NCBI RefSeq assembly: GCF_002214505.1
Contig: NZ_CP015103.1
Location: 1,736,001-1,800,000 of the forward strand
From: Thermococcus siculi
Lineage (GTDB): Archaea > Methanobacteriota_B > Thermococci > Thermococcales > Thermococcaceae
Direction of reading: 5' to 3'
Length of the DNA stretch: 64,000 nucleotides
In this document: positions 25,603 to 37,876 of the stretch, piece by piece
How positions within the stretch are numbered: the stretch's first letter is position 1
Layout of the letters: every line of letters starts with the position of its first letter
Translations under genes and position numbers: made by a program
The notes under the pieces: generated by a model
The model's database searches: none
Told to the model about the DNA's origin: nothing
Seen by the model: the letters and a program-made list of their open reading frames with translations, nothing else

Positions 25603-26493
25603 TCACTTCAAAATCTCCGCCTTAACCCTCTCCGCTATATCCCTCATCGCTTCCGCTGCCTTTGAGTCCGGAAATGCCTCGACGAAGGGCTTCAGCATGG
25701 CCATGCTCCTGGGTATCGCCCTGTCGTAGGGCACCTCTCCGAGAACCGGTATCCCCTCGCTCTCGGCCCACTCCCTGAGGGCAGTGAAGCCCGGGTTGAT
25801 GTCCGCCTTGTTGATTATCAGGTAGGCCGGCTCCCTGAAGTGCTGGACGACCTTGTAGACCCTCTGAACGTCGCTGAGTGAGGCGGGCGTCGGCTCGGCT
25901 ATGAGTATCGCGACGTCGGCCCCGCCGAGGCTGGCTATGACCTGGCATCCGATTCCCGCGGCGCTGTCAACGACCATGTGCTCGAGACCCTGCTCCTCCA
26001 TGAGCCTCTTCGCCCACTCCTTCTCCTCCGTGACGAGCTTCCCGCTCTCCGGCCGGCCAACGTCGAGCTGGGCAGATATTATTGGAAAGCCATACTTCGT
26101 GGTGGCTCTCCTAATGACGCCGGAGCGGGCCTCTTCCAACGATATAGTTCCCGGAACGGGACAGACAAGGCCGCAGACGTTGCAGCCCTCGCAGGTAAGC
26201 TCGTTGACCACATAATTGCCGTCGTCATCGATGTAAATGCTGTCGTAGGGACAGCGCTCCATACATATGCCGCACCTTATGCAGCTCTCCGTGCTTATCC
26301 TCGCGACCTTCGCGCCTACGTGCTCCCTCTCCTCCTCCCACTCCCTAACTCCGAGGAGCAGGCCGAGGTTCGGGGCCTCAGCATCTGCGTCAACGGCAAC
26401 GAGCCTATAATCGTCCTTGAGGAAGTATAGGAGCGAAGCTGTTATCGTGCTCTTTCCAACGCCACCCTTGCCGCTGGCTATGGCTATCTGCAT
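25603..26493 (-). CDS. MinD-superfamily P-loop ATPase with inserted ferredoxin domain (copy 2)
   Basis: A 296-aa Mrp/MinD-like ATPase with deviant Walker A GKGGVGKST near 8-16 and an inserted 2x[4Fe-4S] ferredoxin domain: CIRCGICMERCP near 72-83 and CEGCNVCGLVCP near 102-113. This family (COG1149 type) is widespread in anaerobic archaea next to NifX-like genes and is thought to act in iron-sulfur or metal-cofactor handling; its reaction is not established. ATG 26493 overlaps the stop of the paralogue upstream (TGATG), so the two are co-translated. GGGGTGATGAG ribosome site. Confidence 0.92.
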   Translation of the reverse strand: MQIAIASGKGGVGKSTITASLLYFLKDDYRLVAVDADAEAPNLGLLLGVREWEEEREHVGAKVARISTESCIRCGICMERCPYDSIYIDDDGNYVVNELTCEGCNVCGLVCPVPGTISLEEARSGVIRRATTKYGFPIISAQLDVGRPESGKLVTEEKEWAKRLMEEQGLEHMVVDSAAGIGCQVIASLGGADVAILIAEPTPASLSDVQRVYKVVQHFREPAYLIINKADINPGFTALREWAESEGIPVLGEVPYDRAIPRSMAMLKPFVEAFPDSKAAEAMRDIAERVKAEILK

Positions 26494-27365
26494 CACTCAT
26501 CACCCCCGAGGAAGTCGAGAACCCTCTTTGCAAGGCCGGTGAATATCTCCGCTTCTGGGTAGTCGGTCAGGACTATCGGCCTCCCCTCGACGTAGCTCCT
26601 CACGATGTTCTCGCTGTAGGGAATCTCAGCAACCACTTCAGCCCCGTACTTCCGGGCTAGCTCGTAGACCTTCTCCTTCTCACCGAGGTCGGCCCTGTTC
26701 ACCACGACCCACGTGGGCATCTCCATGAGCTTTCCGAGTTCAAGAATGAGTTCCGTGTCGTGGATTCCGAGCGGGGTGGGTTCCGTAACCGCTATGAGAA
26801 GGTCTGAGAACTCGACGGCCTTCGAGACGGTGTTCCCCGTGCCCGCGGCAGTGTCGATGAAGAGGAGTCCCTCCTGAACGGCCTGGGCCTTCTTCTTTGC
26901 GGCAACCACGAGGGGCATCGAGCGCTCCTCCCCTTCCCGGAGCCTTCCCGTGACGAGGGTGAAGCCATAGGGGGTCGGCGTAACGTAGGTGTGGCCGATG
27001 AGCCTCTTGCCCTCGAGTATCGCCCCCGGCACTGGGCAGACTATCTCGCAGGCCCTGCATCCGGAACAGAGGTTCGGCATGAGGAACGGCGTTCCATCGC
27101 GCATCGTTATGATAGCGTGCTCCTCGCAGACTTCAGCACACTTCCTGCACTTGGTGCACTTCGAGTAGTCAAAGCGCGGCATGAACTGCATCACCGGCTC
27201 CTCATTGGCCAGCTCGACCCCGAGGAGAAGGTGATCATTGGGGGCCTCCACGTCGAGGTCGGCAAAGGTAAGGTTTATTCCCAGTCCTTTGAGTGCAACG
27301 GCAAGGTTTACGGCCACCGTTGACTTTCCGGTGCCTCCTTTTCCACCGCTCACGGCTATCTGCAA
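26493..27365 (-). CDS. MinD-superfamily P-loop ATPase with inserted ferredoxin domain (copy 1)
   Basis: A 290-aa paralogue of the next gene product. Walker A GKGGTGKST near 8-16, ferredoxin insert CTKCRKCAEVCEE near 70-82 and CSGCRACEIVCPVPG near 96-110, Walker B LLFIDTAAGTG. The two ATPases probably form a heterodimer, as Mrp/Nbp35-type ATPases dimerise (inference). Starts with TTG at 27365, preceded by GGAGGTGAG; no ATG fits the N-terminal MQIAVSGGKGG. Divergent from the NifX-like gene at 27439; the shared intergenic region carries AAAAGCTTTTAAGCTTT and the site described at 27410. Confidence 0.92.
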   Translation of the reverse strand: MQIAVSGGKGGTGKSTVAVNLAVALKGLGINLTFADLDVEAPNDHLLLGVELANEEPVMQFMPRFDYSKCTKCRKCAEVCEEHAIITMRDGTPFLMPNLCSGCRACEIVCPVPGAILEGKRLIGHTYVTPTPYGFTLVTGRLREGEERSMPLVVAAKKKAQAVQEGLLFIDTAAGTGNTVSKAVEFSDLLIAVTEPTPLGIHDTELILELGKLMEMPTWVVVNRADLGEKEKVYELARKYGAEVVAEIPYSENIVRSYVEGRPIVLTDYPEAEIFTGLAKRVLDFLGGDE

Positions 27366-27409
27366 GCTCTCACCTCCGGAATTAGGCTGACCTAAAAGCT
27401 TTTAAGCTT

Positions 27410-27423
27410 TGTGCATACGCTCA
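27410..27423. promoter_or_regulatory. Candidate operator TGTGCATACGCTCA
   Basis: Directly follows the TTTTAAG TATA-like sequence (27400-27407) of the NifX-like gene and matches 12 of 14 positions of the perfect palindrome at 30237-30250, which has the same placement relative to its TATA box. It also lies in the divergent region shared with the MinD-like genes. Inferred binding site of a common regulator. Confidence 0.45.
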
Positions 27424-27438
27424 AAAACGGTGATGCTC

Positions 27439-27855
27439 ATGGCCAAGAAGAGATGCCTTAAGGTCGCGTTCGGGATGGAGGACGACGAGCACCTCATCGA
27501 CGCCCACTACGGCGACTCGGAGTTCTTCGCGATATACGAGGTCTGTGAGGATGGAGAGGTAAAGCTACTCGAAAAGAGGCACAACAAAGCAAAGGACTTC
27601 AAGGAGGAAGACGAGGGTCACGGAGACCCGAGGAAGTTCAAGGCCGTGGTTGGCCAGCTCCTCGACGTCGACGTTTTGGCAGCATTCAGAATGGGACCGA
27701 ACTTCCTGAGAATCCGCGACAAGACCAACAAGGTGGCATTCTTCACGAGGACGAGGGACCTAAAGCTCGCACTTCAGAGGGTCGTTGAGGGCTTCGACGA
27801 CCTCTGGGAGCAGGTGCAGGCTAAGAAGGCTGAAAAGCCACCAATAGAGGAGTGA
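27439..27855 (+). CDS. NifX/NifB-like dinitrogenase Fe-Mo cofactor family protein (138 aa)
   Basis: Member of the NifX/NifB C-terminal/NafY fold family (ribonuclease H-like), which in nitrogen fixers carries iron-sulfur or FeMo-cofactor precursors. The 138-aa product has LKVAFGMEDDEHLIDAHYGDSEFFAIYEV at the start and a more acidic, His-containing middle (KEEDEGHGD) that could bind metal. No nitrogenase is present, so the role must be in other metal-cluster traffic. ATG 27439 follows GGTGATGCTC. Divergent from the MinD-ferredoxin pair, which supports joint action. Confidence 0.85.
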   Translation: MAKKRCLKVAFGMEDDEHLIDAHYGDSEFFAIYEVCEDGEVKLLEKRHNKAKDFKEEDEGHGDPRKFKAVVGQLLDVDVLAAFRMGPNFLRIRDKTNKVAFFTRTRDLKLALQRVVEGFDDLWEQVQAKKAEKPPIEE

Positions 27856-27857
27856 AA

Positions 27858-28289
27858 ATGAGATTCTGGGGCATCTTCCCAAAGATCGCCCTTCTCTCCT
27901 CCATCTACGCGGCTACGGCGTTCTACTTAAACAAGGCCCTCAATGCCCGCTTCTTATCCCTTCCTGGCCCGGGCCTGGTGACGATATCCATAGGCTTAGC
28001 CCTCTGGTTCATCTGCTACCTACAAGTTTCCAGGGCCTATTCTGAGGGGAAGCTCCTCACAAAGGGGTGTTACTCAAAGGTCAGGCACCCGATATACTCG
28101 ATCTGGGGCTTTCTCATCCTCCCGGGCTTTTCGCTCGTAATCGGCGGCTTTATGCTGTTCCTCCCGCTCGTTTACTGGCTCTCGGTGATGAAGTTCATAG
28201 GGGAGGAAGAGAGGGCACTTGAGGAGAGGTTTGGGGATGAGTGGCGGGAATACAAAGAGAGAACGCCCAGGTTCGTACCGAGGCATTGA
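27858..28289 (+). CDS. Isoprenylcysteine carboxyl methyltransferase (ICMT/PEMT)-like membrane protein
   Basis: A 143-aa protein with four hydrophobic segments and the ICMT/PEMT C-terminal signature: GCYSKVRHPIYS near 71-82 and EERFGDEWREYKERTPRFVP near 122-141 (SAM-binding region). It probably methylates a lipid or a thiol/carboxyl group; the substrate is unknown. GAGGAGTGAAA before the ATG; starts three bases after the NifX-like gene and overlaps the next gene, so it is part of the operon. Confidence 0.85.
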   Translation: MRFWGIFPKIALLSSIYAATAFYLNKALNARFLSLPGPGLVTISIGLALWFICYLQVSRAYSEGKLLTKGCYSKVRHPIYSIWGFLILPGFSLVIGGFMLFLPLVYWLSVMKFIGEEERALEERFGDEWREYKERTPRFVPRH

Positions 28290-28767
28290 GCTTCTTCCGG
28301 TTCACCTCTACGTCCTGGCCCACCTCAAGAGGGCCGGCGTGGATTACGCCAGGATGATGGCGAAGATGAGCGAGCTGCCACTCCCCACGATTGAAACCGC
28401 GATAAAAGACCTCATGGATGTTGGGCTGATTGAGAGGGACAGCGGAAGCGCGGTGAAGAGGAGCAAAGCCCGGTTCAAGAAGGCCTTCGAGGTTCACAAG
28501 CACCACACCTACTACCGCCTCTCCCGGGAAGGCGAGCTTTTCGTTAGGTCAATCGATAGGGAATGGTTGGAGATATACTTTGAGTCGCTCTTTCCGGGCG
28601 GATGGAATGCAGTCAAGGTTCTCAAAAGCGCGGGATCCTTCAACGAGCTTCCCAAAGGACTCAGACATGATGAAGTCAGGGACGAGCTTCTCCTCCATCG
28701 CTTCATAACGCCAAACGGCCGAAAGACCAGGTTTTTCAGGCTGCTGATGGAGTTCCTCAGGGTTTAA
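28237..28767 (+). CDS. DUF2250 winged-helix protein
   Basis: A DUF2250 protein, predicted winged-helix DNA-binding (VHLYVLAHLKRAGVDYARMMAKMSELPLPTIETAIKDLMDVGLIER, about 20-70). The start is not settled. The ATG at 28237 gives 176 aa and overlaps the methyltransferase gene by 53 nt; family members usually begin close to the residues ELLPVHLYVLAHL, nearer 28285, where only ATT and other rare codons are available. Its 3' end overlaps the convergent MBL gene by four bases. Possible regulator of the surrounding metal cluster. Confidence 0.78.
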   Translation: MSGGNTKRERPGSYRGIELLPVHLYVLAHLKRAGVDYARMMAKMSELPLPTIETAIKDLMDVGLIERDSGSAVKRSKARFKKAFEVHKHHTYYRLSREGELFVRSIDREWLEIYFESLFPGGWNAVKVLKSAGSFNELPKGLRHDEVRDELLLHRFITPNGRKTRFFRLLMEFLRV

Positions 28768-29426
28768 ACCTCGACCATCGTGCCCGTTTTAACCGATACA
28801 AACTTCTCCGGGTACCTCTTCCTCACGTACGTCTTCGCCGCATCTCCGGAACAGTGGGCGGGGGCTATGAAGTCGGCCATCTCGGCGAGCCTGTCCAGAG
28901 TTCCCCTCGATGGCCCGTGGAAGCCACCGATGACGAGGTGGGCCTTTTCATGGCCAGAAACCTCAAGGATGGCCCTAGTGAGCCGGTCAACGCCGGGGTG
29001 GGAGCAGCCGACGAGGACGACCAGCCCTGAGGGGGTTTCCACTCCAACCGCCTGCTCGAAGCCGTCCAGAGGGCCGGAAGTCCACACTCCGGCGGCGATT
29101 CTTCCAGCGTTCAGCACCTCAACCACGTCGAAGCCCCATCTCATCGCCTCTACCTTATTCCCCGGTGGGGCGTAGAGCCTCAGCCCCGGGTTCAGCTCGC
29201 CCACGTGGGGGAACCCGCCGTAGTGGTCGTAGTGCCAGTGGCTCAGAACCGCAAAGTCGAGGCCTTTGAGGGAAACGCCGAGGGCCTTTGAGTTGTGCGC
29301 CAGAACGAGGGGGTTTGTATCTGCGTCGAAGAGGAAGCGGTGTTTCCCCTCAACCAGAACGCTCCAGCCCCACTCGTTCAGGAGGCCCCTTGAGGGCGTG
29401 TTGTCGTTCAGGACGATGAGCCTCAT
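28764..29426 (-). CDS. MBL-fold metallohydrolase (COG1237 type)
   Basis: A 220-aa metallo-beta-lactamase-fold protein of the type annotated as dihydropteridine/RFAP synthase-like hydrolase (COG1237). Metal ligands: SHWHYDHYGG near 62-71 (HxHxDH), GCSHPG near 140-145, GGFHG near 166-170 and the terminal PAHC. COG1237 genes often sit beside MinD-ferredoxin, NifX and DUF134 genes in archaea (from general knowledge), matching this neighbourhood. ATGA overlap with the DUF364 gene upstream. Confidence 0.88.
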   Translation of the reverse strand: MRLIVLNDNTPSRGLLNEWGWSVLVEGKHRFLFDADTNPLVLAHNSKALGVSLKGLDFAVLSHWHYDHYGGFPHVGELNPGLRLYAPPGNKVEAMRWGFDVVEVLNAGRIAAGVWTSGPLDGFEQAVGVETPSGLVVLVGCSHPGVDRLTRAILEVSGHEKAHLVIGGFHGPSRGTLDRLAEMADFIAPAHCSGDAAKTYVRKRYPEKFVSVKTGTMVEV

Positions 29427-30160
29427 ACCCTCACCACGTACTTTCGGTTGCCCTCCTCGAAGCCCCTGAAACTTCCAAGCTTGAGACCGAGTAAAGCCCT
29501 CTCGATGTCAACGACCTTCATGGCCGCGAGATGTGTGACGCGCGTTCCCCTCAGGAACTCCGGCAGGAGCTGGCCCGTCGGCCCGGTGAGGACGAATAGT
29601 TTAGCATTCTTCGCCCTGTCGATGAGGAGGTCAATCGTTCCGTTTACCAAACACGAGGCGCTCGCTATCACCGCATCCATCTCGGGCAGGAGGTGGTACT
29701 CGAGGGCGTCGCTGTAGGTCTCCTTGTCCCAGAGTTTAGGGTTGCGCTCGAAGACGAAGACGTTGAAGCCCTCTTCCCGGAGCTTCTTTACCAGCGGCGG
29801 CATGTTGCCTATCATGGCGACTTTACCCGCATCCCCAGGGAGTAACTCAAGGACGTCGACCCACTCCGCGCCGCTCAGGTCTATGTGGTACTGCGAGACC
29901 GCGTTTATCGCGGCCATTCCAAGGGTTCTCTCAATGACGTTCAGACTGTCGGCCCTTTCTATAAACGCCTCAAGGGAGGGCCTCCCTATGGAGTTTCTAT
30001 ACCTCTGCACCTCCTCGGGAAGGGTCATCGCAACGCCGAGAGCCTTTCCCTCTGGCCCCTGGACGAGAACCCACGTGTAGGGAAGGGCAAAGCCGAAATC
30101 GAGCAGTTCGAGGCCATCGGCAAGGGAAAGTGCCTTCCGTTTGATTTTTTCCAGCAGCAT
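29423..30160 (-). CDS. DUF364 protein (putative heavy-metal chelation domain)
   Basis: A 245-aa protein of the DUF364 family: an enolase-N-terminal-like first half and a Rossmann-like C-terminal half (VAMIGNMPPLVKKLREEGFNVFVFERNP; DAVIASASCLVNGTIDLLI; VLTGPTGQLLPEFL). The family is proposed, from structure and gene context, to bind heavy metals or corrinoid/siderophore-like ligands; no reaction is known. The ATG at 30160 follows GGTGTGGTGG; a GTG at 30169 is possible. Divergent from the second NifX-like gene. Confidence 0.85.
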   Translation of the reverse strand: MLLEKIKRKALSLADGLELLDFGFALPYTWVLVQGPEGKALGVAMTLPEEVQRYRNSIGRPSLEAFIERADSLNVIERTLGMAAINAVSQYHIDLSGAEWVDVLELLPGDAGKVAMIGNMPPLVKKLREEGFNVFVFERNPKLWDKETYSDALEYHLLPEMDAVIASASCLVNGTIDLLIDRAKNAKLFVLTGPTGQLLPEFLRGTRVTHLAAMKVVDIERALLGLKLGSFRGFEEGNRKYVVRV

Positions 30161-30236
30161 CCACCACACCCATCATGTTTCGGCCTCCACCCTTAAATGC
30201 CCATCGATAGTTAGGTGAACCGAAAACTTTAAATGG

Positions 30237-30250
30237 TGTGCATATGCACA
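30237..30250. promoter_or_regulatory. Perfect 14-bp palindrome TGTGCATATGCACA (operator)
   Basis: Lies immediately downstream of the TATA box CTTTAAATGG (30227-30236) of the NifX-like gene that begins at 30287, between TATA box and expected transcription start, where an archaeal repressor would block polymerase. Near-copies occur before the other two NifX-like genes (12/14 at 27410; 11/14 at 31216-31229). Confidence 0.6.
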
Positions 30251-30286
30251 AAATAATAGAAGAAAAGAAGAAACGAGGTGGTGAAG

Positions 30287-30916
30287 ATGAGAATCGCCGT
30301 ACCAACCAATGGTGGAGGGCTCAACGACACGGTTGCCCCGGTCTTTGCCCGTGCTCCGGCATTCTACATAGCGGACGTTGACGAGAACGGAAACGTCACC
30401 AACGAGAAGGTCATCCAGAACGGAGCGGCCATGGCCGGAGGCGGAGCCGGCCCGATGGCCGTTCAGACGCTCATCAACGAGGGAGTAGAGGCAATAATAG
30501 CCCCGCAGGTTGGGCCGAACGCCCTTGGAGCCATACAGGCCGCAGGCATAAGGCTCTACCAGGTCGCACCCGGGACTCCAGTTGAGGAGGCCATAAAGGC
30601 GGTCACCAGTGGGGGCGTGGAGCAGTTCAGGACCCCCACCCCTGCCGCGCCGGTTGCCCCGGCAACCCCAACGGCTCCAGCTCCAGCCTACGGACCCTAT
30701 CCGACCACGCCCGCATACCCGCCGTACCCGGCCTACGGCTACGGCCCCGGCTGGGGCAGGGGCTGGGGCCGCGGTGGCGGCTGGGGAAGAGGACGCGGTT
30801 GGGGCCGCGGTTGGGGCAGAGGCGGAAGAGGCTGGGGAGCAAGGCTTGGCTACTGCCCCTGGACCGGCCAGCCGAGCAGGAGGACGTGGCTCGCCAGGTT
30901 CTTCGGCTGGTGGTGA
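30287..30916 (+). CDS. NifX-like protein with Pro/Ala linker and Gly-Arg-Trp-rich tail
   Basis: A 209-aa protein. Residues 1-105 are a NifX-type domain (MRIAVPTNGGGLNDTVAPVFARAPAFYIADVD ... GVEAIIAPQVGPNALGAIQAAGIRLYQV). There follow a Pro/Ala/Thr linker (about 110-150), a PAYPPYPAYGYGP stretch, and repeated GRGWGRG/GGGWGRGRG units (about 160-190), ending YCPWTGQPSRRTWLARFFGWW. The tail is unusual; similar low-complexity stretches occur in DUF5320-type proteins of this neighbourhood in other archaea. ATG 30287 follows GGTGGTGAAG; the palindrome upstream suggests regulation. Confidence 0.85.
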   Translation: MRIAVPTNGGGLNDTVAPVFARAPAFYIADVDENGNVTNEKVIQNGAAMAGGGAGPMAVQTLINEGVEAIIAPQVGPNALGAIQAAGIRLYQVAPGTPVEEAIKAVTSGGVEQFRTPTPAAPVAPATPTAPAPAYGPYPTTPAYPPYPAYGYGPGWGRGWGRGGGWGRGRGWGRGWGRGGRGWGARLGYCPWTGQPSRRTWLARFFGWW

Positions 30917-30981
30917 GTCCCTTCTGACCTTTTGCCCATTTATTTTGAAGCATGGTGCGTAGCTGTAAGGGGGAAGTCCAG

Positions 30982-31218
30982 ATGCCGCGAGGATTCGGCA
31001 GAGGGTACGGCAGATTCGGGAGCGGATACCGGAGGTACGGATTCCTTCCGTTCGGGGGCGTTTACGGCCTGATAGACCTGCTGTTCATAATTGGAATCCT
31101 GTACTTCCTGGTCAAGCTCTTCATAGTTGCGGCGCCCTACGCCCTGGGACTGGTGGTTCTCCTTATCCTGAGGTCTCTCCTCAGGCCAAGACCCGGGGCC
31201 TGGTTCGGCCCATTTTGA
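30982..31218 (+). CDS. Small Gly-Arg-rich membrane protein
   Basis: A 78-aa protein. The first 25 residues are Gly/Arg/Tyr-rich (PRGFGRGYGRFGSGYRRYGF), then one long or two short hydrophobic segments (about 32-65), ending RSLLRPRPGAWFGPF. Not recognised. GGGGGAAG precedes the ATG at 30982, which is preferred to one at 30952. Lies between two NifX-like genes on the same strand; its Gly-Arg segment resembles theirs, so it may anchor them to the membrane (inference). Confidence 0.68.
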   Translation: MPRGFGRGYGRFGSGYRRYGFLPFGGVYGLIDLLFIIGILYFLVKLFIVAAPYALGLVVLLILRSLLRPRPGAWFGPF

Positions 31219-31229
31219 GCTTATGCAAA
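31216..31229. promoter_or_regulatory. Partial copy of the NifX-cluster operator (TGAGCTTATGCAAA)
   Basis: 11 of 14 positions match TGTGCATATGCACA. It lies just before the TTTTTTAAG TATA-like box (31231-31239) of the gene at 31274, whereas the other copies lie after the box. Weak on its own; listed because of the other two. Confidence 0.25.
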
Positions 31230-31273
31230 CTTTTTTAAGTTCGGTTTTCCTAATTCGCGCGGAGGTGAAAGGG

Positions 31274-31768
31274 ATGAGGATAATCGTATCAACCGTAAAC
31301 GGGGGTCTCGACGACAGGGTCAACCCGGCCTTCGGGAGGACTCCAACCTTTACGATAGTCGACGTCGACGAAAGCGGGAAGGTGGCGAACGTCCAAGTCG
31401 TGCCTAACCCCGGCTACTCCCAGCCAAGGGGTGCAGGGGTCACAGCGGCTCAGTTCTGCATAGATCAGGGGGCAGATGTCGCCATATCCGGCCAGTTTGG
31501 ACCCAACTCCTCCGGCGTCCTCCAGGCTGCGGGCATAAAAATGGTCTCCGCACCCGCAAACATGACGGTCCGCGAGGCAGTCGAGGCATTCCTCCGCGGC
31601 GAGCTCACCGGGGCAGTGATGGGTCCCGAGGGCGGCGGAATGGGTGGAGGCTACGGCGCTGGCATGGGGCGTGGAGGAGGTATGGGAAGAGGACGTGGAA
31701 TGGGCCGCGGCAGAGGAGCCGGCGGTGGAATGGGAAGAGGACGCGGTGGCGGCTGGGGTGGCTGGTGA
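31274..31768 (+). CDS. NifX-like protein with Gly-Arg-Met-rich tail
   Basis: A 164-aa protein. The NifX-type domain is at about 1-105 (MRIIVSTVNGGLDDRVNPAFGRTPTFTIVDVDESG ... GADVAISGQFGPNSSGVLQAAGIKMVSA), followed by a low-complexity tail of GMGRGRG/GGGMGRGRG units (about 115-164). Paralogous to the product of the gene at 30287. ATG 31274 follows GGAGGTGAAAGG; the long frame upstream is rejected because the promoter lies in it. Probably carries a metal cluster or precursor, by analogy with NifX/NafY. Confidence 0.85.
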   Translation: MRIIVSTVNGGLDDRVNPAFGRTPTFTIVDVDESGKVANVQVVPNPGYSQPRGAGVTAAQFCIDQGADVAISGQFGPNSSGVLQAAGIKMVSAPANMTVREAVEAFLRGELTGAVMGPEGGGMGGGYGAGMGRGGGMGRGRGMGRGRGAGGGMGRGRGGGWGGW

Positions 31769-35555: not shown

Positions 35556-35649
35556 CCTTCTCACCGGGACAAATTAAGCCCATGAGATTATAACCGTTAC
35601 TGGGCGGCGGAAAGCCTATAAAGTGTGAGCCGTAGGGTGTTTGATAGCC

Positions 35650-36006
35650 ATGCCGATGGGAATGGGACTGGGAAGAGGTCGCGGAAGGGGCAGACGAAGA
35701 AAGATGAGGATGATAGGTTTCATCCCCGAGGTTAGGCATTTCTATCCAGCACTGCCGCCAGTTGGCCAGCCGAAACCGCCGATCTTCATGACGTATGAGG
35801 AGTTTGAAGCCCTTAGACTCGTCGATTATGAGGGACTAACCCAGGAAGAGGCAGGAAAAAGAATGGGCGTCTCACGCGGCACGGTGTGGCGGGCCCTTAG
35901 CTCCGCCAGGAAGAAAGTGGCCCAGATGATAGTTGAGGGGAGGGAGCTTATCATACTCCCGCAGGGCAACGAGGTTCCCAAAGGGATAGCTGAAGAAAGA
36001 GAATGA
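35650..36006 (+). CDS. DUF134 family DNA-binding protein
   Basis: A 118-aa DUF134 (COG1342) protein with a sigma-70 region 4-like helix-turn-helix (MTYEEFEALRLVDYEGLTQEEAGKRMGVSRGTVWRALSSARKKVAQ, about 44-90). The N-terminus is Gly/Arg-rich (MGLGRGRGRGRRRK), echoing the tails of the NifX-like proteins 4 kb away. DUF134 genes commonly lie with NifX and COG1149 genes in archaea, so it is the best local candidate for the protein that reads the TGTGCATATGCACA sites. Promoter CCTATAAAG about 20 nt before the start; no strong ribosome site, perhaps leaderless. Confidence 0.85.
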   Translation: MPMGMGLGRGRGRGRRRKMRMIGFIPEVRHFYPALPPVGQPKPPIFMTYEEFEALRLVDYEGLTQEEAGKRMGVSRGTVWRALSSARKKVAQMIVEGRELIILPQGNEVPKGIAEERE

Positions 36007-36419
36007 TAGGTCCATTAACTAGATTGAACTCTTTTATCGGTTCTTTGGATCATTAGAGCTGTTACGGCACTTTGGCAACTTTTAGGTTCCCCTAATTTTT
36101 GTGTGGAGGTTATCTCTCAAATTTTTGAGTGAATTATGACTATATAAAATCGTTGATTTATAGGAATTTATAATCTTAAAATAACAGCATCTGTGAAATG
36201 TTGAAATCATAATACTTAGCTTTGTATAATAATAGAAAAGTAATAAAAGGAATAAAATCACTAAATAAATCAGTAAAAAATTTAAAAAATATACTATCCA
36301 AAGAAATAAACTCTGGTAGAAATGTACACATTAGAATATGAAACTGGATGAGGGGAACATCCCATCGTGAGGTGGCCCCGAAGATTATGATGTTCTCTCA
36401 TAAGCCCGATCACAGAGAC

Positions 36420-37493: not shown

Positions 37494-37876
37494 CGACAAA
37501 AATGCCGGCTTCCACAGTCTAGAACCATCAATCCCGCAAGGGTATGGGACCGCTATGTTTGGATGTATCCAAAGGTTATCTTCACCCGAAATAATCTGCA
37601 ATTGTATTGATAATACCATGAAAGAAAGTTAAAAAATCAAAAATTATAATACTAAAATAAGTATTTAAGAAACATGCACAAATTAACAGACAATGTAATT
37701 ATATGAAATTGTATTAAAACTACGTATTATTACCCTGTAAATCTGTATATCTAATGTTGTTTTAATTATAAGAATTTCAAAAGTAAAAACTCGCCGGAAA
37801 ATTTGAGAGTTGATCTGCATATGAAAATAGGACATACAAAAAGACGTTAAAAAGCTCAAAAAAGGAATTAAAAGTA

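Follow-up and report, generated by a model that had tools for sequence, protein, structure and literature searches.

IssA (PF2025, formerly SipA) of Pyrococcus furiosus has been described as a thioferrate iron-sulfur storage protein that sulfide induces only when enough iron is available, and no regulator is named for it in the accessible sections of that report (PMC5524996). For the same organism, a DtxR regulon has been described that is, in the part of the report available, largely predicted (PMC6316755). A study of iron in Thermococcales names the T. kodakarensis DtxR homologue TK0107 and observed induction of FeoAB, and NifX goes unmentioned in its main text (PMC12827226). In Desulfovibrio, the orange protein (ORP) operons encode the NifX-like proteins Orp8 and Orp9 and the ferredoxin-domain proteins Orp3 and Orp4 (PMC6345978). 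The present analysis concerns a stretch of 64,000 nucleotides from Thermococcus siculi (NZ_CP015103.1, positions 1,736,001 to 1,800,000), called the window below, to which all coordinates refer unless stated otherwise. It contains three NifX-like genes, and the element under study is the 14-bp palindrome TGTGCATATGCACA found at their promoters, together with a DUF134 protein that is the candidate to read it.

An initial annotation, made from the sequence alone, had proposed that these three promoters share one site, a claim that is now strongly supported. The three copies that it reported were all found in place: a perfect palindrome, TGTGCATATGCACA itself (site B, 30237-30250), a 12/14 copy, TGTGCATACGCTCA, with two mismatches (site A, 27410-27423) and an 11/14 copy, TGAGCTTATGCAAA, with three (site C, 31216-31229). 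The genes behind them, all on the plus strand (27442-27855, 30287-30916 and 31274-31768, named below NifX1, the IssA-like gene and NifX3), were correctly recognized as NifX-like, since each one matches PF02579. Chance was rightly judged unlikely to give three such matches: the window holds four matches at up to three mismatches against a mean of 0.67 after shuffling, and none of 100 shuffles reached four. No role is evident for the fourth of these matches, at 37814. The genome to which the window belongs is a single 2.03-Mb contig, and a scan of it found that the motif is not common away from promoters. About 0.008 perfect copies are expected from base composition, and two are present, both at NifX-like promoters, namely site B and a copy at genome position 1031143, 44 bp before a fourth NifX-like gene located outside the window. 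Allowing two mismatches gives only four places in the genome: the two perfect copies, site A, and a match at genome position 820917 which, in the 401 bases viewed around it, stands at none of the five NifX-like genes. Four of these five genes carry the site, one of them in the two-mismatch form and one in the three-mismatch form, and no site was found upstream of the fifth paralogue.

The conservation of the element extends to the whole order. In 94 Thermococcales genomes, 230 sites were counted at no more than one mismatch, against seven for the reversed pattern used as a control; they are spread over 90 genomes, mostly as two to four copies each, and 73 of the 74 genomes of good quality hold at least one. 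Orthologous promoters do not lack the motif either. Where the sequence upstream of a NifX-like gene spans 100 nt or more (56 rows including two duplicates, hence 54 distinct stretches), 52 of the 54 distinct stretches contain a match at up to three mismatches and 53 at up to four, the exception being the fifth paralogue; shuffles of the 56 rows gave 0.4 matches (largest 2) and 2.3 matches (largest 5), respectively. Even the degenerate TGAGCTTATGCAAA is found identical, 43-44 bp before the domain, in 11 distinct NifX-like genes including that of the window. Such base-for-base conservation of a degenerate site argues for function and possibly for an affinity that has been tuned. Chance as the origin of the sites is ruled out by the shuffles, the rarity of the motif in the genome and the order-wide counts, and the palindrome is almost certainly a real operator.

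The gene context was read for 80 of the 230 sites, the remainder being counted only. These 80 comprise 74 of the 79 sites tallied in genomes G000 to G028 (two on contig 164 of G003, one on contig 126 of G010 and two in G028 are omitted), one each from G029, G030 and G062, and three from G067. At 58 of them, the palindrome lies 20-47 bp before a NifX-like domain in the correct orientation. The translations read at the other 22 are those of MinD-type iron-sulfur (Fe-S) ATPases (10 sites), cation-efflux proteins (7), Mrp (2) and FmdE (1), two sites being left unassigned. The Mrp sites are about 100 bp from the gene; the other side of the FmdE site (L263) runs off the contig end, with a sequence there that resembles the promoter of the fourth NifX gene. 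A profile scan of one representative per non-NifX family returned matches to Cation_efflux, NUBPL/ParA, Fer4 and FmdE. The shared site at NifX-like promoters therefore stands, and the initial annotation was too narrow in its scope, as other iron-sulfur and metal genes are marked as well. ATPases of the Mrp type carry Fe-S clusters, and surplus iron could be exported by a cation-efflux transporter. A gene set made of IssA-like proteins, Fe-S carrier ATPases and cation efflux thus points to a regulon for iron-sulfur storage and handling in the Thermococcales, a reading that, taken jointly with DUF134 as the binder of TGTGCATATGCACA, is considered reasonably likely. Two single genomes add a separate observation: a site stands between a cation-efflux gene and a divergent MoaC-like gene in one (L024), and between MinD and a divergent MobA-like gene, read from translations, in the other (L229), a hint of some connection with the genes for molybdenum or tungsten cofactors.

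The gene behind the perfect site encodes a protein of 209 amino acids in which the NifX domain is followed by a proline-rich stretch and by a tail rich in glycine, aromatic residues and arginine. The 100 residues after position 109 include 16 P, 24 G, 12 R/K and 20 F/W/Y, and the single cysteine of the protein is residue 190, in the tail. Judged from its NifX domain and from this composition, set against the published description of IssA, the product of 30287-30916 is a probable IssA. NifX3 also carries a Gly/Arg-rich tail, and its best match among solved structures is 2wfb (ORP). An 88-residue gene without Pfam match (30952-31218), with a basic N-terminal part and hydrophobic stretches, lies between the two Gly/Arg-tailed NifX-like genes. 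Divergent to the IssA-like gene, and some 67 bp away from site B, is a DUF364/DUF4213 gene (29423-30169; putative heavy-metal chelation).

The palindrome does not stand alone at these promoters. A second box, TTAGGnnnnCCTAA/CCGAA, is present across the TATA box in all three window promoters, in degenerate form at 31240. It resembles the half-site arrangement of DtxR (TTAGG) and is called DtxR-like here. Two layouts can be distinguished. In the first, seen at the IssA-like gene and NifX1, an TTAGGnnnnCCGAA or CCTAA box is followed by the TATA box and, about 2 bp later, by the palindrome. In the second, seen at MinD, NifX3 and the fourth NifX gene, the palindrome covers the expected transcription factor B recognition element (BRE) and precedes the TATA box, after which MinD and NifX3 have the TTAGG box. 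The IssA-like gene has its DtxR-like box TTAGGTGAACCGAA at 30211-30224, upstream of the TATA box CTTTAAAT (30227-30234, plus strand), with site B starting 2 bp after the latter and 26 bp from the box, start to start. At NifX3, site C ends where the TATA region CTTTTTTAAG (31230-31239, plus strand) begins, and the degenerate box TTCGGTTTTCCTAA follows at 31240-31253, 24 bp from site C start to start; promoters related to NifX3 have TTAGGnnnnCCTAA at 25 bp from the palindrome. Site A belongs to a divergent promoter, in which it lies after the TATA box for NifX1 and before it for a MinD/Mrp-type P-loop ATPase with a ferredoxin domain, encoded on the minus strand (26493-27365) and similar to genes that carry the site elsewhere. 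Across the TATA region AAGCTTTTAAGCTT (27396-27409), itself a near-palindrome that could serve both directions, stands the DtxR-like box TTAGGCTGACCTAA (27382-27395), 28 bp from site A start to start. The segment 27382-27423 therefore combines both layouts at once, the first for NifX1 on the plus strand and the second for the MinD-type gene on the minus strand, and orthologues of NifX1 and MinD in other genomes have site A at the corresponding spots. A second MinD-type Fe-S ATPase gene (25603-26496, minus strand) overlaps the first by four bases, and the two probably form one operon.

This arrangement was scanned for around the 80 sites, a second box being accepted at up to two mismatches to TTAGGTnnACCTAA within 90 bp of the palindrome. 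The TTAGG box was found at 33 of the 58 NifX-like sites, or 33 of 41 once the 17 sites of fourth-paralogue type are set apart (0/17 in these), and at 8 of the 10 MinD sites, 27-28 bp from the palindrome. Control windows drawn from these loci, the box being included in some, gave 39/580 for NifX-like sites and 13/100 for MinD. The spacing is 25-29 bp start to start in 40 of the 41 NifX-like and MinD cases (32 of 33 for NifX-like alone), compared with 24-28 bp in the window promoters.

The window encodes, at 35650-36006 on the plus strand (scanned as 35641-36006), the only DUF134 protein of the genome. It scores 89.9 bits against PF02001 (cut-off 27) and 209.5 against NF003257 (cut-off 115). A structural model built from a 43-row alignment has a mean predicted local distance difference test (pLDDT) score of 81.9 and a single helix-turn-helix (HTH) domain, whose predicted helices at residues 49-60, 65-72 and 76-96 have block means of 92-97. 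A fold comparison with the PDB placed sigma region 4 and the DeoR DNA-binding domain nearest, with a best E of 0.04 (probability 1.00) and no hit at E ≤0.001, and a sequence search found no solved DUF134 structure (best E 0.13). The protein is therefore predicted to have an HTH fold of the sigma-region-4 type. Another DtxR-like box, TTAGGTTCCCCTAA (36082-36095), closely follows the DUF134 gene, within a long segment to which no gene is assigned.

DUF134 accompanies the site in most of the order, with a match in 85 of the 94 genomes and in 72 of the 74 good ones. Each of these 85 genomes has one match apart from G010, a fragmented genome (77% complete) that has two. The gene and a site are no more than 7 kb apart in 16 of 24 genomes, where random placement would give 0.39, though these genomes share ancestry and are not independent (the set is G000 to G028 with DUF134 and listed sites on contig C1, without G001, G003, G010, G011 and G016). 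In G019 and G021 it is convergent to the MinD pair. The initial annotation had named the DUF134 or the DUF2250 protein as possible regulator, and its first candidate was retained on the basis of co-occurrence, closeness and palindromes at DUF134's own promoters in other lineages. DUF134 is thus the likely binder of the palindrome.

On these grounds, TGTGCATATGCACA would act as the operator for IssA-type and other NifX-like genes and for MinD/Mrp-type Fe-S ATPases, and in some genomes for cation efflux. The DUF134 protein would most likely bind it as a dimer. In archaeal initiation, a protein bound at either palindrome position would obstruct the TATA-binding protein, transcription factor B or the polymerase; repression is therefore the simplest mode, and a DUF134 dimer placed just downstream of the TATA box, or upstream over the BRE, may block the initiation complex. 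The second box, about 24-29 bp away across the TATA box, would be read by the iron-dependent repressor of the DtxR family (PF0851 in P. furiosus). The sulfide induction of IssA, with its need for iron, suits two operators, and such a dual control could explain why the protein rises with sulfide only when iron is sufficient. Taken as a whole, an operator read by DUF134 and a second box read by DtxR, together controlling an iron-sulfur regulon, make up a fairly probable account.

The first independent evidence for DUF134 comes from its own promoters outside the Thermococcales. In archaea of a sister class, palindromes stand between the TATA box and the start codon of DUF134 genes. They are of the form TGAATATATATTCA in four genomes from three families, with the helix SQPTF or SQPTL, of the TGCAT type in two genomes with the helix HQSTF, and CATATG in three genomes with the helix SRKTLW (the L281 copy overlapping a possible start codon); other sister-class genomes, including most of family f3, have only A/T-rich or weak palindromes at this place. 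In all, TGAATATATATTCA occurs at seven distinct places in 6 of 21 sister-class genomes, of which four are at the DUF134 promoter, two between Mrp and a DtxR-family repressor, and one without clear link. DUF134, Mrp and DtxR are thus associated here as well, around a palindrome that has the length of TGTGCATATGCACA and an ATAT centre but differs in its outer letters. At L290 and L291 (genomes G110 and G112), the DtxR-family repressor and the Mrp ATPase flank TGAATATATATTCA, so that DtxR is linked a second time to a palindrome of the DUF134 type.

Bacteria provide a second line. Three bacterial proteins fuse DUF134 and a NifX domain in one polypeptide, which suggests that NifX domains may act as the sensing part. 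The palindrome TTGACATATGTCAA precedes the DUF134-NifX fusion genes of Selenomonas and Roseburia, as well as the DUF134 gene of a Peptococcaceae genome, and related imperfect palindromes precede DUF134 in Pusillibacter, Treponema and Citrobacter. Over 112 DUF134 own promoters, a set in which related genomes are not independent and which includes five plasmid promoters inspected beforehand, perfect 14-bp palindromes with at least two G/C were counted in nine, against 1.15 expected and at most 4 in 100 shuffles. Of the 64 palindromic hexamers, CATATG shows the strongest enrichment in the same set, with 15 promoters, four of them from plasmids, against 4.8-5.4 expected and at most 12 in 100 shuffles. 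Neighbour counts by short motifs (P-loop 28, FmdE 4 and NifX-like 3 of 70 loci) are crude and were left unused. DUF134 was also seen in 188 plasmid records, 126 of them from Klebsiella or Citrobacter; at one such locus (L108), its neighbours are NifX-like, hotdog, Dps and ArsR-family genes, and DUF134 itself is preceded by two CATATG sites.

Several observations weigh against this account, and the first three given here would suit a real operator bound by another regulator conserved in Thermococcales, for instance a winged-helix protein with its gene at some other place, with DUF134 as a mere neighbour. In 8 of the 24 genomes, a distance of 89-256 kb separates DUF134 from the closest listed site (for G028, two sites lie outside the listing). 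The own promoters of Thermococcales DUF134 genes have a best match with at least five mismatches in 31 of 31 loci, and self-regulation through the same site is therefore rejected for this order (0/31). DUF134 went unmatched in nine of the 94 genomes, most of them incomplete, and incompleteness alone would account for about 5.9; eight of the nine nevertheless keep the site at no more than one mismatch (G062, G063, G064, G065, G067, G082, G083 and G088), G066 being the only one that lacks both. Among these, G067 is 99% complete, with 6% contamination and about 140 contigs, and has three sites, at two NifX-like genes and one MinD gene. Its gene order breaks beside MinD, where DUF134 stands in G019 and G021, so that a loss of DUF134 and an assembly gap are indistinguishable. 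Conversely, G060 has DUF134 and no site at one mismatch or less. Near co-occurrence within a single order cannot separate DUF134 from other core regulators. Among the best 80 of at least 533 confirmed clostridial relatives, most, which have VSRQTFQN as recognition helix, lack a comparable palindrome upstream of DUF134, and many of these genes seem to lie downstream within an operon; such relatives are ill suited to a search for operators. The motif TGACATATGTCA marks DUF134 in only three of the seven bacterial genomes or records that hold it, an eighth record scanned (W03) having none; elsewhere it accompanies Crp-like or MarR-like genes, or stands away from any clear promoter. As read from the translations, two clostridial genomes have it between the genes of a Crp-like regulator and of a DMT-like membrane protein, and another has it ahead of a MarR-like gene (L300 to L302); these are probably sites of other regulators. 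Set against another binder are the palindromes of the same size at DUF134 promoters in other archaea and in some bacteria, some of them sharing the CATATG centre, and the sister-class palindrome before DUF134 that also marks Mrp/DtxR genes. Such a binder is a real possibility, albeit a doubtful one.

The other candidates have far less in their favor. DtxR or Fur might read TGTGCATATGCACA as a second class of metal box, and a TTAGG box does accompany 43 of the 80 sites within 90 bp at up to two mismatches, which makes iron control likely there. However, the two boxes have no common half-site, and at the fourth-paralogue, Mrp (0/2) and FmdE promoters the palindrome lacks a clear TTAGG box in the 90 bp around it. 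These same promoters, together with the cation-efflux sites, where the box is present at only two of seven and farther off, also count against the main account given above, and a DtxR or Fur protein on the palindrome itself is improbable. Still less probable is a palindrome that no protein reads, being either a variant of the core promoter or a feature of the transcript. Its closeness to the TATA box in aligned NifX-like, MinD and most cation-efflux promoters would fit such an explanation, but it occurs on either side of the TATA box, is nearly confined to one gene set over the 80 sites, and is mostly limited to two to four copies per genome. Hardly any weight can be given to the DUF2250 protein (28219-28767, plus strand; PF10007) or to the ArsR-like HTH neighbour of the fourth NifX gene, even if both adjoin target genes in the host genome. 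PF10007 is present in only 57 of the 94 genomes and 48 of the 74 good ones, and is missing from 99%-complete genomes that carry the site, such as G002, G008, G012, G015, G027 and G034, a distribution that excludes DUF2250 as the regulator. The ArsR-like protein was found at only 5 of the 17 loci of fourth-paralogue type, the search covering these loci only, and one of the five is a 23-residue fragment.

DUF134 as the reader of the palindrome also permits a broader proposal, which is offered tentatively. The family could constitute an ancient group of archaeal and bacterial iron-sulfur sensor-repressors that read A/T-centred palindromes, with NifX proteins as sensing partners and DtxR as an iron gate. 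The NifX partner would be fused to DUF134 in some bacteria and encoded by separate, self-regulated genes in the Thermococcales. A NifX protein loaded with a cluster would release DUF134 from the IssA, ATPase and efflux promoters, and DtxR, placed across the TATA box, would add an iron gate to these promoters.

What results is a pair of operator sequences with a gene set and one specific candidate regulator, and Thermococcus and Pyrococcus species with genetics exist for testing. If DUF134 does bind TGTGCATATGCACA, this would be the first operator and the first role for a family that ranges over archaea, Clostridia, Bacteroidota, Spirochaetota and enterobacterial plasmids. In the literature searched, outside of which most subscription journals fall, no described function of DUF134/UPF0251/COG1342 was found by title, TGTGCATATGCACA appeared in a single paper, which by its title concerns human telomeres, and no NifX regulon of Thermococcales was found. 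The window protein is a member of this family by both the Pfam and the NCBIfam cut-offs. The IssA-like protein shares with IssA the NifX-type N-terminal domain, the proline-rich stretch and the Gly/aromatic/cationic tail holding the only cysteine, but it has 209 residues instead of 179, and it was likened to IssA through the published description and not through the PF2025 sequence. The DtxR half-site TTAGG is recognizable in the second box TTAGGnnnnCCTAA, whereas TGTGCATATGCACA differs in kind from a DtxR-type box and also occurs without one. The regulon described here resembles the ORP operons in combining NifX-like proteins with Mrp-type ATPases. In the sections available of the ORP report, however, control is exerted through a sigma54-dependent promoter with its cognate regulator, in contrast to the palindromes that flank an archaeal TATA box here (PMC6345978). 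A repressor operator at the TATA box is of a known kind, and it is the regulon and the operator for the DUF134 family that appear to be new.

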